DNA of 34,459 nt from a virus: the IMG/VR virus record IMGVR_UViG_3300003321_000338, positions 1 to 34,459 of that record; one strand, 5' to 3'. The notes beneath the pieces were generated by a model. That model was not told the DNA's origin, did no database searches, and saw nothing but the letters and a program-made list of their open reading frames with translations. The translations under genes were made by a program, and so were the position numbers. Position 1 is the first letter of the stretch, and each line of letters opens with the position of its first letter. Shown in pieces: positions 2,281 to 33,791 of the stretch.

Positions 2281-2910
2281 TTAACAAACCAAAAATCCAG
2301 AAAAATAAGTAAAATTACCTGCTCCAATATCCACAGTTTTTGTGCTACCTGATATAGTTATAGTACATGTAGCAGTATCAGTTGCACTCATAGAAACTGT
2401 TAAAGATCCATTTACTATAATATTACTATTTGAATCCCTTAAATTAGCTGCATTTCCTGCACTAACTTCATAAGTTCCACCAGTAGTTACTAGAGCTAAT
2501 ATAAATTGAGTATGAGATGATCCTATTTGTCCAGCTAACATACTAAATGTAAAATGATATTTACCAGATACAGGAGCAGTAAATGTTGAGGTACCATCAA
2601 AATTATTTGCTTGATCAAACTTTTCACTATTAAAAATTAATGTATAAACAGTTCCATCACCTGTTACATCGTTTCTGGAGCTTCCATTGCTAGCACCAAA
2701 TGCCGGTTGTCCTGGGTTAACCATCGTTCCATTTAGAGTTAATCCTGCAAATGTTGGACTTATTGATGAGGTAGTAGAAGTTAAGTTCTTAGATCCATCT
2801 GTTGCAACTAATCTTGATGCAGTTAAACCAGATAAATTAAGACCTGTAAAAGTAGCTGAATCAGAAGTAGCTAACTTTTGATTTGAGTTTGTGACATTGT
2901 TAGTTGCCAT
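2281..2910 (-). CDS. C1q-like domain protein, probable receptor-binding tip
   Basis: 209 residues. Residues 1-70 are low-complexity Ser/Thr/Asn repeats of fibre type (SNQKLATSDSATFTGLNLSG is a typical fibre-shaft repeat). Residues about 75-209 match the C1q/TNF-like jelly-roll pattern: N-F-DGTSTFTAPVSGKYHF near the first conserved strands and a final YFSGFLVC strand. C1q-like heads occur at the ends of phage fibres as trimeric binding modules. It follows the giant fibre gene by 10 nt and may act as a separate tip or adhesin. The domain call is by pattern; the shaft repeat is clear. Confidence 0.72.
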   Translation of the reverse strand: MATNNVTNSNQKLATSDSATFTGLNLSGLTASRLVATDGSKNLTSTTSSISPTFAGLTLNGTMVNPGQPAFGASNGSSRNDVTGDGTVYTLIFNSEKFDQANNFDGTSTFTAPVSGKYHFTFSMLAGQIGSSHTQFILALVTTGGTYEVSAGNAANLRDSNSNIIVNGSLTVSMSATDTATCTITISGSTKTVDIGAGNFTYFSGFLVC

Positions 2911-2920
2911 TGTTCTTCTC

Positions 2921-5900
2921 CTACACTACAGTAATATTACCTACGGCTGTTTGTACAACCCAAGTTGTATTAGCAGTAACACATTTTAATTTTATATTAT
3001 CCCACTGATTAGTTGATGACAAACTTCCACCAACACCTGTTGTTGTTGTACTAGAACCTAAATGAACTAATTGACCTGAATTCTGAGCAATAGACCATCC
3101 TCCAGCACCCTTACCATTAACTGTTACTTGATCCCCAATAGCTGCTGTTGATGGCAAAGTAAGAGTAACTAATCCAGCATTATTAGCAGTATATTCATTA
3201 TTAACAGCCATACTTTGAGAAGTTCCTGTTACTTCTGTATATGGAGAATTTCCAGTTGATGCAATAGTAATTGATCCAGCGCCATTTGTAATAGATATTC
3301 CATTTCCTGGAGTTAGAGTAGAAGCACTTGGGCTACTACCAGTAGATCCAATTAAAACTTGTCCATTTGTCAAAGCAGTGGCAGTAACAACATTAGAAGA
3401 ACTTAATGTTAATACAGTTGAAGCAGTTATATTAGGAAACTCTATCCCACCAGAATTATTGACTGTTATTACAGTAACTGGAGTAGCAGTATTTCCAGCA
3501 GATCCTAATGGTGCTGATCGAAGATCAATACCATTTGTTGTTAATTCAATAAGACCAGCTCCCGCTGCTATTGCATTAATATATTTATAGCTAATAGCCG
3601 TGGAATCCCAGACTAAATTTTTTGCCATAAATATTTTACTTGAAGAAGTTATACCAGCATAACCAAATCCTTCATAATTAATAAGATTACCCAAGCTCAA
3701 AGTAGAAGGAAAGTTTAATGCAGCATTCGTGCTAGTTAATGCAGAACCTTTATTATTTATGGTAGCTAATCCAACTGTTAAGCCAGCCGTAGAAGAATCG
3801 AAACCGAAATTTGCATTATTTAAAGGCTGCAAAGATTGCGATCCACTAGCACTAATGAATAATGGAAAGCATGTAGTATCACTAGCTTCATTAACAGATT
3901 GTATAGTCTGAGGAACTATATTTGCAGTTCCATCAAACGAAACTCCACCTATAGTTCTTGGTGTTTGCAATGCAGTTGCTGTCGCAGCATTTCCTGAAAT
4001 ATTTCCAGTTAAACTAGCAGTTATTGTTCCTGCTGAAAAATTACCACTAGCATCTCTTGATACAATTGCACTAGCAGTATTAGCGCTAGTTGCAGTAGTT
4101 GCAGAATTAGATACCTTTCCTGCAGTAGATATTGTATTAAGTTTGCTATCATCAATAGAACCAGCAAGCATTGCATTTGTGACTTTAGATGCACCTATTG
4201 CTGTGACACCAGTAGAATTTATAGTGATATCACCAGAAACTGCATTAGTTACCCAAGTAGTTCCAGAACCTATTAATATATTACCGGAAGTTGCAGTTGT
4301 AGAACCTAATGAAACACCATTTATTTTTGCTACCGTTGGAGAAGGATATGTTCCAGATAAATCACCACCTGCCGCTCCTCCTGGAGCCGTTCCACTAATT
4401 GTAACATTAGAGGCAGCGGTTATTTGACCTTTAGCATTTACTGTAAAACTTCCTACATGCGTACTATCCCCAAATGATCCAACATTTGAATTAACAGTAG
4501 CGATTGTTGTTGCATTTCCTATACTTGTCACATCACCTGTTAAATTAGCATTTGTAGTAACAGTAGCAGAATTACCAGTAATGTCACCTGTTAATGTTCC
4601 CGCACTTTCAGTAAATGTTAATAATGCAGTTCCACCACTGTTTTTAATTTCAAATGGTTTAGTATTTTGATCACCCTGTATAATTCCGTTTCCAACATCA
4701 TATGCTTGTTGTAAAGTAGATGTAGAAGCTAAATTCTGATTAACAGATCCCACCATTTCTTGAGCTATTAAATTATTTGCTAAGCTATCTAAATTGGCTA
4801 CATATAATTGAACAACATCACCTGCTACCAATGAAAATGTATATTTAACAACCAACGCACTTCCACTTCCGCTTAAGCTAGCGGCTGGTTCAACATAATA
4901 AGTTTGTAAACTTTCTGTTTGAACAACACTATTAACAGCTATAGAAAATGCAAATACATTCTGAGTACCAGAACTTCTACCACTTATTACATATTCAAAA
5001 TCATAAGTTCCATCATCAACTATCTCAACACTTCCATTACTATTGACATTTATATTACTAGATGATGAACTAGCAACTGTACAATTTACTGCTTTATATG
5101 ATGAATTTGAAAAAGTAGTCGTTGCTCCTGATGAAATAGCAAATACTGCATATCCACCATTCAATAATCCACTACCAGATGAACTGATGGTAACTGTTCC
5201 ATCTCCATTATTTAATATAGTTATATTAGTACCAGCTACTAAACCATCAATATCTAATACAGTTTGCCAAGTTGTCCCATCAAAATAATCTAATGTTTTA
5301 TAATCAGAATTATATATTCTAAGTCCTTCATCAGGAGAAACTATTGCATCTCTTTGTGCAACAGTCATAATAGGTGCATCTATTACTCCCTGTGTTGTAC
5401 TTGTAATTTTTGAAAAATAAGACTTAGAATCATTGTTATATTCTAGATCAGTTGATGGATTTGATATTGTCATTGGTTTAGATGAATCAATATCAATTGA
5501 TTGTCCAGTATTATAAGCTTCTTGTAATGAACTATGTAAATTAGTAGCTATCCAAGTCCCATCAGCCGTAGTATTGGTATCTAATTGAACCATGTAGAAA
5601 TCACCCGGGTTCAATACTGCAATAACATTTGCACTTCCATCGGTTAAAGTTGCAACAAATGCACTATTATTTTTAAAGTAAACTGGATATCCTTTTCTAA
5701 CAGTATTAAATGCATTTGCAATCCATAATGCAATAAATCCATTTGTTACAAAATCAATTGAGTAATAATAACGAGCTGGATTCCCTAAACTAGTGTTTGG
5801 GAATGGTACAGAATTTACAATTGATTGAAATGGAGCAATAGGAAAATTTATTGGTATTAATGTCCATGAAGATCCATTATAAAAAGCATAAGTATTTTGA

Positions 5901-32096: not shown

Positions 32097-32486
32097 ATGT
32101 ATAGAAATTTAGATATAAATTCAATTGTTTATTCTTATATGGATACAAAAAAAGATTTATTCGAGAAATTAATCAACGATAAACTTAATGAGTTAAATGT
32201 TGAAATATTAATAAATGATTTTATTTCAACAAAAATAAATAGAGAAATAGATAATGCAATTATAAAATCAATTAGATGTAAGTTTGATCAAACAATTGAA
32301 AATACTATATTCTCAATAATTAATGAAAAACATTTGAGTGATGAATCTGTTAATAAATTAATAAAACAATCTTTTAATAAAGCTGATATAAAAAAATACA
32401 TAAAAGATAGAATTATTAAAAATTTAACAAAAGAATGTGAAGAATATGAAATATCCATTGTTAAAATAAAAAGAGAATATGATTGA
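32097..32486 (+). CDS. 129-residue helical protein of unknown function
   Basis: AAAGGA five bases before the ATG. The protein is almost fully helical, Ile/Lys/Asn/Glu rich, with DTKKDLFEKLINDKLNELNV near the front and KYIKDRIIKNLTKECEEYE at the back; oligomeric coiled coil likely. Very AT-rich codon use. I do not recognise it. It begins the plus-strand island of genes separated by structured elements; the first element follows its stop by three bases. Confidence 0.68.
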   Translation: MYRNLDINSIVYSYMDTKKDLFEKLINDKLNELNVEILINDFISTKINREIDNAIIKSIRCKFDQTIENTIFSIINEKHLSDESVNKLIKQSFNKADIKKYIKDRIIKNLTKECEEYEISIVKIKREYD

Positions 32487-32489
32487 AAA

Positions 32490-32556
32490 TTTATGGCCGA
32501 CGATACTTGTATAGGCGTTACACCCTTTGACTACAGGAAAAATAGGCCGCCAGTTT
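32490..32556 (+). ncRNA. structured repeat element A
   Basis: 67 nt between two small genes. Its ends match element B: TTTATGGC-N-GACGATA at the front and AAAATAG-N-CCGCCAGTTT at the back. TGGC (32494-32497) pairs with GCCA (32549-32552), GAC with GGC allows partial extension, and CTTGTA (32506-32511) pairs with TACAGG (32532-32537). The centre differs from B while pairing is kept, as expected for a selected RNA structure. It is more GC-rich than its surroundings. Strand is assigned by gene direction. Confidence 0.45.
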
Positions 32557-32577
32557 AATGTTGGATAAATTTAGTAT

Positions 32578-32745
32578 ATGAAAATTTACATTGTTATTCG
32601 TCATGTTGACGGATCAAAAAAAAATGTTATTGTTACATCCAGTAAAAAATCAGCAGAACATATGTGCTCTCAATTTAATTTCATAGACTCGTATGAAATT
32701 GAAGAACATGATTTAATGGATGAAGTTATGATGCAAAGTAATTAA
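32578..32745 (+). CDS. 55-residue protein between two structured elements
   Basis: MKIYIVIRHVDGSKKNVIVT, then SSKKSAEHMCSQFNFIDSYE and an acidic helical end. Alternating strands at the front, then helix: a small alpha/beta fold. The nearest ribosome-like site is GGA about 13 nt upstream, which is poor, so the upstream structured element may affect translation. No family recognised. Element B follows three bases after the stop. Confidence 0.6.
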   Translation: MKIYIVIRHVDGSKKNVIVTSSKKSAEHMCSQFNFIDSYEIEEHDLMDEVMMQSN

Positions 32746-32748
32746 AAG

Positions 32749-32817
32749 TTTATGGCAGACGATATCGTGGTACTGCTCATCAGTCGAAGAGACCACAATA
32801 AAATAGTCCGCCAGTTT
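32749..32817 (+). ncRNA. structured repeat element B
   Basis: 69 nt sharing both ends with element A. Helices seen: P1 TGGC-A-GAC (32753-32760) with GTC-C-GCCA (32806-32813), one internal mismatch; P2 GTGGT (32767-32771) with ACCAC (32792-32796); P3 ACTG (32772-32775) with CAGT (32781-32784) closing a CTCAT loop; seven unpaired bases CGAAGAG between P3 and P2. No tRNA, riboswitch or ribozyme class that I know fits. Confidence 0.48.
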
Positions 32818-32891
32818 CCGGTTTGGGAGGATTGAGCAATGTTTCCCTATGAGGCCCGGAAAGGTTCGCTAGTACCCTGCTCGATACTAGC
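32818..32891 (+). other. two further hairpins following element B
   Basis: CCGG (32818-32821) with CCGG (32856-32859) encloses GGGA (32825-32828) paired with TCCC (32844-32847). Next, GCTAGTA (32868-32874) pairs perfectly with TACTAGC (32885-32891) around a 10-nt loop. No open frame with a start fits this 106-nt gap. With elements A, B and the arms around the HNH gene it makes a dense run of RNA structure. Confidence 0.45.
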
Positions 32892-32899
32892 AAAGTTTA

Positions 32900-33356
32900 T
32901 GGCAATCGCGGCGTGGATAATAAATGAGAAAACCAACTAAAAATTGGATTGATAGAAAATGTTTAATCTGTGAATCAGATTTTAAAGTAGCTCCTTGGCG
33001 TATAAAAAAAGGTGGTGGATTATATTGTTCTATTCACTGTTTAAACGTGCGTAATGGTAGAAAATATGCTGAAAATTGTACTGGCGAAAATAATGCTAAT
33101 TGGAAAGGTGGATTAACTAAAAATCGTTATAGATATAAGTTGATTGATAAATCACGTTATCCAGAACATCATAAAGCACGAGAATCGGTTAGAAGAGCCA
33201 AGAAGTCAGGAAAGCTAATAAAGAAACCATGTTTTATTTGTGATGAGATTAAGGTATATGCTCATCATGAAGATTATTCAAAACCGCTTGATGTTAAATG
33301 GTTATGTTCAAGATGCCATCGTGAACAACACAAGTAGCAATTCTGGCCGATTGCCA
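32900..33356. repeat. complementary arms bracketing the HNH gene
   Basis: TGGCAATCG (32900-32908) and CGATTGCCA (33348-33356) are perfectly complementary and enclose the HNH gene, with 15 and 10 bases to spare. The left arm is preceded by GTTTATGGC, the same front as element B (elements A and B share TTTATGGC). So the HNH gene may lie in the loop of a third element of the same kind. Confidence 0.45.
32924..33337 (+). CDS. HNH homing-type endonuclease
   Basis: 137 residues. N-terminal zinc site C13, C16, C35, C39 (CLICESDF and YCSIHC), a GENNANWKGG segment typical of phage homing endonucleases, then the HNH core: CFIC (103-106), AHHEDYSKPLDV (113-124) with the catalytic His pair, and WLCSRCHREQH (126-136). 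Complete and apparently intact. Nicks or cuts DNA and probably spreads itself. No split host gene is evident on either side, so it is free-standing or part of an unidentified intron-like element. GTGGA lies about eight bases before the ATG. Confidence 0.92.
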   Translation: MRKPTKNWIDRKCLICESDFKVAPWRIKKGGGLYCSIHCLNVRNGRKYAENCTGENNANWKGGLTKNRYRYKLIDKSRYPEHHKARESVRRAKKSGKLIKKPCFICDEIKVYAHHEDYSKPLDVKWLCSRCHREQHK

Positions 33357-33471: not shown

Positions 33472-33717
33472 ATGTCAGTTTTATCATTTCAAATCAATTT
33501 CCCTGGTCAAGCAGTTAATCCACGTTTAGGTCATTTGTTATCAGATGATACACTTGCAGTTGTTACAGGTGCAGGTTATTTAGATTATTATGTTAACAGC
33601 CAAGGATTTAGTTTATTACCAACTGATTTTGTGTTAGTCATGGCTTCTGATGGTGGAGCATTATGCACAGTAGCTGAATCAGCAGGATCATTTAAGTTGA
33701 CCTCTATTACAAATTAA
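33472..33717 (+). CDS. 81-residue conserved phage protein
   Basis: AGGAG about nine bases before the ATG. MSVLSFQINFPGQAVNPRLG, then DDTLAVVTGAGYLDYYV and LPTDFVLVMASDGG, ending in LTSITN. The order P-R-x(2)-x-x(5)-DTL-x(4)-GAGYL...D-x-V-x-V fits a small beta protein found in many phages, known to me by pattern only and without assigned function. Base composition is less AT-rich than in its neighbours. It stands alone before a terminator, and its promoter is not clear. Confidence 0.75.
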   Translation: MSVLSFQINFPGQAVNPRLGHLLSDDTLAVVTGAGYLDYYVNSQGFSLLPTDFVLVMASDGGALCTVAESAGSFKLTSITN

Positions 33718-33760: not shown

Positions 33761-33791
33761 AAAAGCCTCGTCATATCCGGGGCTTTTTTTT
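33761..33791. terminator. terminator between convergent genes
   Basis: AAAAGCCTCG (33761-33770) pairs with CGGGGCTTTT (33778-33787), 10 bp with one G-T, then T to 33791. It serves the plus-strand gene ending at 33717, and in reverse the XRE gene ending at 33793, though the reverse U tract is only about four bases. Confidence 0.88.

Follow-up and report, generated by a model that had tools for sequence, protein, structure and literature searches.

Elements A and B of the window

The window analysed here is a viral DNA stretch of 34,459 nt (IMG/VR record IMGVR_UViG_3300003321_000338, positions 1 to 34,459). A first-pass annotation had pointed to two related elements in it, A (32490-32556) and B (32749-32817), and both were located at these positions. 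As it had described, they lie in gaps after small genes, A a few bases past the stop codon of the ORF at 32097-32486 and B likewise after the ORF at 32578-32745. The order of the array is ORF, A, ORF, B, a type-3 module, a class-2 RNA split by an HNH gene, a small gene and a terminator. The features are listed below; the module types are described in the following sections.

32489-32494, + strand: 5' spacer of element A, AUUUAU; the U(U)UAU ahead of G1 is found again in most of the family and also precedes other tRNA-like modules
32495-32552, + strand: element A, type-1 tRNA-like RNA, putative mature part; matched by covariance model R2, centre in common with an element of contig L037
32495-32498 with 32545-32548, + strand: helix P1 of element A, part of the type-1 structure
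32499-32505 and 32538-32544, + strand: internal loop of element A, part of the type-1 structure
32506-32511 with 32532-32537, + strand: helix P2 of element A, part of the type-1 structure
32549-32552, + strand: 3' GCCA of element A, part of the type-1 structure
32754-32813, + strand: element B, divergent type-1 copy, its ends close to those of A; matched by R2 with filters off
32822-32892, + strand: type-3 module, also present in contigs L047 and L093 (only three sequences)
32901-32923, + strand: 5' half of a class-2 RNA, with acceptor GGCAAUCG and the start of a D-like hairpin; GTTTATGGCAATCGCGGCG is also found in 14 IMG/VR loci, with intact class-2 RNAs elsewhere
32924-33337, + strand: HNH endonuclease-like gene (PHROG 2340 endonuclease, E 2.4e-17)
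33338-33355, + strand: 3' half of the class-2 RNA, with the T-arm end and acceptor CGAUUGCC; intact class-2 RNAs have a 3' end that matches CAATTCTGGCCGATTGCC
33761-33787, + strand: hairpin resembling an intrinsic terminator, located past the array and one small gene (one found against 0.7 expected)

The near-identity of the ends was evident in the alignment of A with B, in which 15 of 17 nt agree on the 5' side and 17 of 18 on the 3' side. A repeat finder run on the window paired 32482-32505 with 32741-32764 (88%) and 32539-32556 with 32800-32817 (94%). Both elements are richer in GC (A 0.50, B 0.48) than their visibly AT-rich flanks, and the predicted folds of both show the outer and inner stems that had been proposed. 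Compared with dinucleotide shuffles, the folding energy of A was weak (z -0.6 to -1.0) and that of B was better (z -2.1 to -2.6). Folding no stronger than that of shuffled sequence had been named in advance as evidence against a structured RNA; A comes close to this outcome. Single-sequence folding energy by itself would not carry the case for A and B.

A family of small viral RNAs with tRNA-like ends

A gapped pattern drawn from both ends of A and B was searched against IMG/VR and gave the first five contigs, and further homologues were collected with the 5' end pattern alone and then, separately, with the 3' end pattern alone. After removal of duplicates and of chance protein starts reading MADDT (~15 matches of the 5' pattern), these two independent patterns yielded ~65 distinct elements, here called type 1, in environmental podovirus-like contigs. 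Their consensus is (G)UUUAU-GGCY-GACGAUA-[centre 15-85 nt, opened by P2]-GAAAAUA-GGCC-RCCA. The architecture is a 4-bp terminal helix (P1, GGCC:GGCC), a 7x7 purine-rich loop (GACGAUA/GAAAAUA), the helix P2 and a hypervariable centre.

None of the search patterns contained P2. Across 47 aligned elements this helix was 86.1% paired compared to 72.1% in the shuffled control, and its covariation was 0.411 compared to 0.175. The value of 0.411 was reached by none of 500 shuffles, and slid controls gave at most 0.136. Position by position, the six pairs of P2 were standard in 98, 98, 77, 71, 66 and 60% of cases, against 86, 95, 42, 38, 40 and 36% after the 3' sides had been dealt among elements, and one of these pairs was U-G in 31 of the 47 elements. 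P1, which is partly fixed by the search patterns, still covaries in a few elements (GGCU:AGCC, GCCC:GGGC). Exchanges in the 7x7 loop, noted by eye in L034 (GAUGAUA/GAAAGUA) and L037 (GACAAUA/GAAGAUA), may be isosteric.

The centres share no common anticodon loop. Six pairs of centres from different contigs, one of them the centre of A with that of an L037 element, exceeded every pair from 30 shuffled sets in similarity, which indicates that the hypervariable centres include distinct heads recurring in different phages. T-loop hairpins were enriched in type-1 centres (5 compared to 0.55 expected) and were too few to serve as a family-defining trait.

A leave-out test used the covariance model R2, from whose training set A, B and the nearest L037 relative had been excluded. 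R2 recovered A at 52.7 bits (E 1.3e-10), whereas B emerged only when the filters were switched off, at 11.1 bits. A second model, R1, was trained on A and B, which explains its lower E-values for them. In B, P2 is kept in register, but the family P1 is altered (GGCA:GUCC) and the outer stem (GGC-A-GAC / GUC-C-GCC) differs from that of the family. Of the compensatory change that had been seen between A and B, the inner stem therefore holds, compensated in the same register, whereas the outer stem of B departs from the family. Since the model without window sequences missed B at default settings, and since B retains P2 in register while the family P1 is lost, the most fitting description of B is a divergent or decaying copy. 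The proposal of selected RNA folding in a small phage ncRNA is strongly supported by the ~65 distinct homologues with P2 covariation, and the opposite outcome, an absence of homologues with covariation, clearly does not apply.

The window gave no family in Rfam 15 at the gathering score or at E up to 10 and no tRNA call by ARAGORN, and in 22 related loci Rfam returned tRNA matches only, all outside the type-1 elements. The earlier statement that the elements fit no RNA class thus holds against Rfam 15. When the region and the type-1 and class-2 sequences were compared by blastn with 50,697 phage records, no homologue was found. One strict pattern match occurred in 84,980 prokaryotic genomes (L007); it lacks the flanks and is probably a chance match. 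Literature searches on these sequences and on phage arrays of tRNA-like RNAs, with subscription papers mostly outside their scope, returned nothing relevant. Collectively, A, and B in altered form, belongs to a previously unlisted family of small, non-decoding viral RNAs with tRNA-like ends.

A portal protein related to that of the window was present in 22 of 33 records, at 21-80% identity, indicating that a deep group of small podovirus-like phages carries the feature. The arrays are close to early genes that resemble, by eye, RecT, exonuclease, AAA and SSB-like proteins.

Arrays of RNA modules around the type-1 elements

Type-1 elements occur in tandem, with four in L037, and L037, L047 and L032 carry RNA-only tandem arrays with no genes between the modules. 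Their neighbours are class-2 RNAs and other acceptor-ended RNAs, joined in some contigs by true tRNAs, and these surrounding RNAs have matching first and last stems. The covarying family, its structure, its boundaries and its association with tRNA-like RNAs and true tRNAs are established. A tRNA-Gln lies inside the arrays of L037 and L068, and the L073 array contains a tRNA-Asn and a tRNA-Met, the tRNA-Asn beginning 2 nt after a type-1 RCCA.

In class-2 RNAs the acceptor is joined directly to a T-arm with the loop UGCAAUU or UUCRANY. There is often a D-like hairpin with the loop GACAGNGA, whose stem covaries, and most of these RNAs are ~75-215 nt long and have no anticodon arm. A search for a word followed by a 7-bp acceptor and a contiguous T-arm gave 22 distinct cases with 11 acceptor pairs when the word was TTTATG and no case with any of nine control words; many of the contigs in this test had been fetched with the class-2 pattern, while those with other acceptors had not.

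In the window, the HNH gene occupies the place of the class-2 variable domain (32901-33355). L069 carries an HNH gene of 65% identity at the same point of its own class-2 RNA (2757-3240). In both, the insertion lies directly after the D-like region, and the stop codon touches the T-loop remnant. In L035, from 1626 onward, an ORF stands where the centre and 3' half of a type-1 element should follow its 5' half (by eye), which is perhaps another homing-gene insertion.

The hairpin loops of the type-3 module, AUUGAGCA and UGCUCGAU, are strictly conserved in its three sequences (the window, L047 and L093), and pairing between the two loops could form a pseudoknot or kissing pair. Just past the class-2 remnant, the segment 33338-33425 contains a hairpin, CTCGAAC...GTTCGAG, between TTATTA and TAATAA, which may be another module. 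The 81-aa ORF at 33472-33717 has homologues (31-52%) in several other array-carrying contigs; the ORFs of the window gave no match to Pfam or PADLOC.

Further acceptor-ended RNA types were seen in L019, L031, L087, L048, L074 and L093. One type with GGCUCUC:GAGAGCC-ACCA is common to L019 and L087, and a 200-nt type with GAAGCUCA is common to L048, L074 and L093. L024 contains a degenerate tRNA (3725-3798, Rfam 38 bits) with a good acceptor and T-arm and no ARAGORN call.

tRNA-like ends and alternative readings

The ends of the type-1 elements (UUUAU-G and GGCC-RCCA) look like those of a pre-tRNA. N-1 and RCCA are established recognition features for RNase P (PMC11143913). Sequence features of its substrates, namely U at -1, G1:C72 and a 3' RCCA, are present in most elements. 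The junction RCCA-N-UUUAU-G occurred 40 times, compared to 1-3 times for each permuted control word at the same spacing. Against a tRNA-processing reading, the final A of RCCA is absent in roughly one quarter to one third of the elements, and the terminal helix is only 4 bp long and is followed by the 7x7 loop. RNase P measures a 12-bp acceptor-T stack, which such a helix does not resemble. In the window and the other loci, no type-1 element was called by ARAGORN or reached the Rfam tRNA threshold, the only calls in other loci being separate true or degenerate tRNAs. A 7-bp acceptor joined to a T-arm is found in the class-2 modules and not in type 1, which also has no anticodon arm.

We interpret the locus, with a probability of about 0.6, as an array of phage ncRNAs with tRNA-acceptor-like ends that are excised by host tRNA-processing enzymes and act as tRNA mimics. 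This reading is based on the ~65 elements, the P2 covariation, the 40 junctions, the 22 TTTATG modules and the true tRNAs within arrays.

Its main rival, which we consider unlikely, is that the elements are tRNA-like punctuation that tRNA enzymes cut or that simply blocks exonucleases, and that serves for separating and stabilising the mRNAs of small genes, with no role of its own for the excised RNA. Such a role in cis fits the position of the elements, 24 of 65 of which start no more than 12 nt after an upstream same-strand stop codon; many also precede a nearby start, and both window elements follow this arrangement. Neither the gene-free tandem RNA arrays nor the recurring conserved heads would be needed for it.

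Improbable in our view is a cis-acting transcription element resembling the HK022 put RNA, with RNA polymerase as its target in early transcription. The arrays do lie near early genes, and PMC9378689 describes put RNAs as phage elements whose action on RNA polymerase is in cis. This reading leaves the tRNA-like ends and the true tRNAs in the arrays unexplained, and R2 found no match in positions 26000-40751 of the HK022 record, an early-region stretch in which put sites are not annotated.

We give a low probability to a DNA-level mobile or recombination cassette of the integron attC or hairpin-ended style. The order of gene and element, the direct GTTTAT at both ends, the HNH gene inside the array and the differing module sets of close relatives (L031, with an 80% identical portal, has other modules) are all in its favour. 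Its difficulties are that the compensatory changes fit folding of RNA or of a single strand, that G-U pairs are common, that the class-2 modules are tRNA-like and that no recombinase is tied to the elements. The mobile hairpin considered in the first-pass annotation likewise finds little support: no transposase-type logic was seen at the ends and the elements keep the strand sense of the RNA arrays, although the HNH gene does invade the array of the window. That the elements are short peptide genes, ATGGCCGACGATACT reading MADDT, is very improbable. Several pattern matches are true protein starts, but in real elements the reading frame of the conserved 3' part varies or stop codons precede it, and the middle shows the covariation of a helix.

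For the tRNA-mimic array, we infer a common transcript that RNase P cuts at the 5' U-G junction, with stable free RNAs that end in RCCA as the products. A-type RNAs would be transcribed together with their neighbours as an array of tRNA-like modules. Host RNase P would then cut between U and G1 of UUUAU-GGCC (between U32494 and G32495 in A), with trimming or completion giving RCCA at the 3' end. This would release RNAs of ~40-110 nt in which different heads carry an acceptor-like end. Such RNAs would most likely be tRNA mimics, for instance decoys of host enzymes whose point of attack is the acceptor end of tRNA. The 3' CCA of tRNA is acted on by ToxSAS defence enzymes (PMC11559606). The decoy role, suggested by defence enzymes of this kind, is a doubtful guess and the weakest step of the explanation. 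The tRNA-like ends and neighbours do point towards the processing or decoy RNA raised earlier as a candidate. More broadly, but still tentatively, modular arrays with a shared acceptor-like handle and interchangeable heads may be released by host tRNA enzymes and occupy or mislead host enzymes whose substrate is tRNA, among them defence toxins, synthetases and processing enzymes. If the RNAs are indeed freed and mimic acceptors, they would be an RNA-based means of countering host defence or of host takeover. Whole RNA arrays in phage genomes are missed by current annotation tools, and enough sequences are in hand to define their structures.

Comparison with known systems

In phage tRNA gene arrays, as here, acceptors with RCCA stand in tandem with short spacers, and true tRNAs are mixed in. 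The type-1 RNAs differ in having no anticodon arm, a 4-bp acceptor followed by the 7x7 loop, and no ARAGORN or Rfam call. The HK022 put RNA is likewise short and structured and is present in more than one copy per genome, but has no tRNA-like ends and does not occur in arrays. An integron attC site, with its complementary RYYYAAC / GTTRRRY core sites, was rejected, as both ends of the elements read GTTTAT in direct orientation.

Plant-virus 3' tRNA-like structures, some of which are RNase P substrates (PMC11143913), are also viral mimics of the tRNA acceptor end. They form the 3' ends of RNA genomes, whereas the phage RNAs are internal, multi-copy and found in dsDNA phages. The M3 RNA of phi80 is, like the proposed type-1 products, a phage RNA of ~60 nt, and it is cut by RNase P (PMC11143913). 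M3 is annotated as a lambda oop homologue and lies outside any array; homology was rejected, as the best R1 match was 9.5 bits (E 1.3) elsewhere in the genome and R2 gave none.

T4 rnaC (species 1) and rnaD (species 2) are small phage RNAs with no stated role, located beside tRNA genes and the homing endonuclease gene segB. rnaC ends in the T-arm GGTTCGAATCC, and rnaD runs into CACCA. Unlike the type-1 RNAs they are single copies and have no type-1 structure, and homology was rejected because R1 and R2 found no match in L094. T4 rnaC and rnaD and phi80 M3 are the nearest known cases; by the models none of them is a homologue of the window RNAs, which may work in a similar way. The T4 stable RNAs beside tRNA genes are still annotated without a role, and RNAs in this style are common, modular and fast-changing in small environmental phages.
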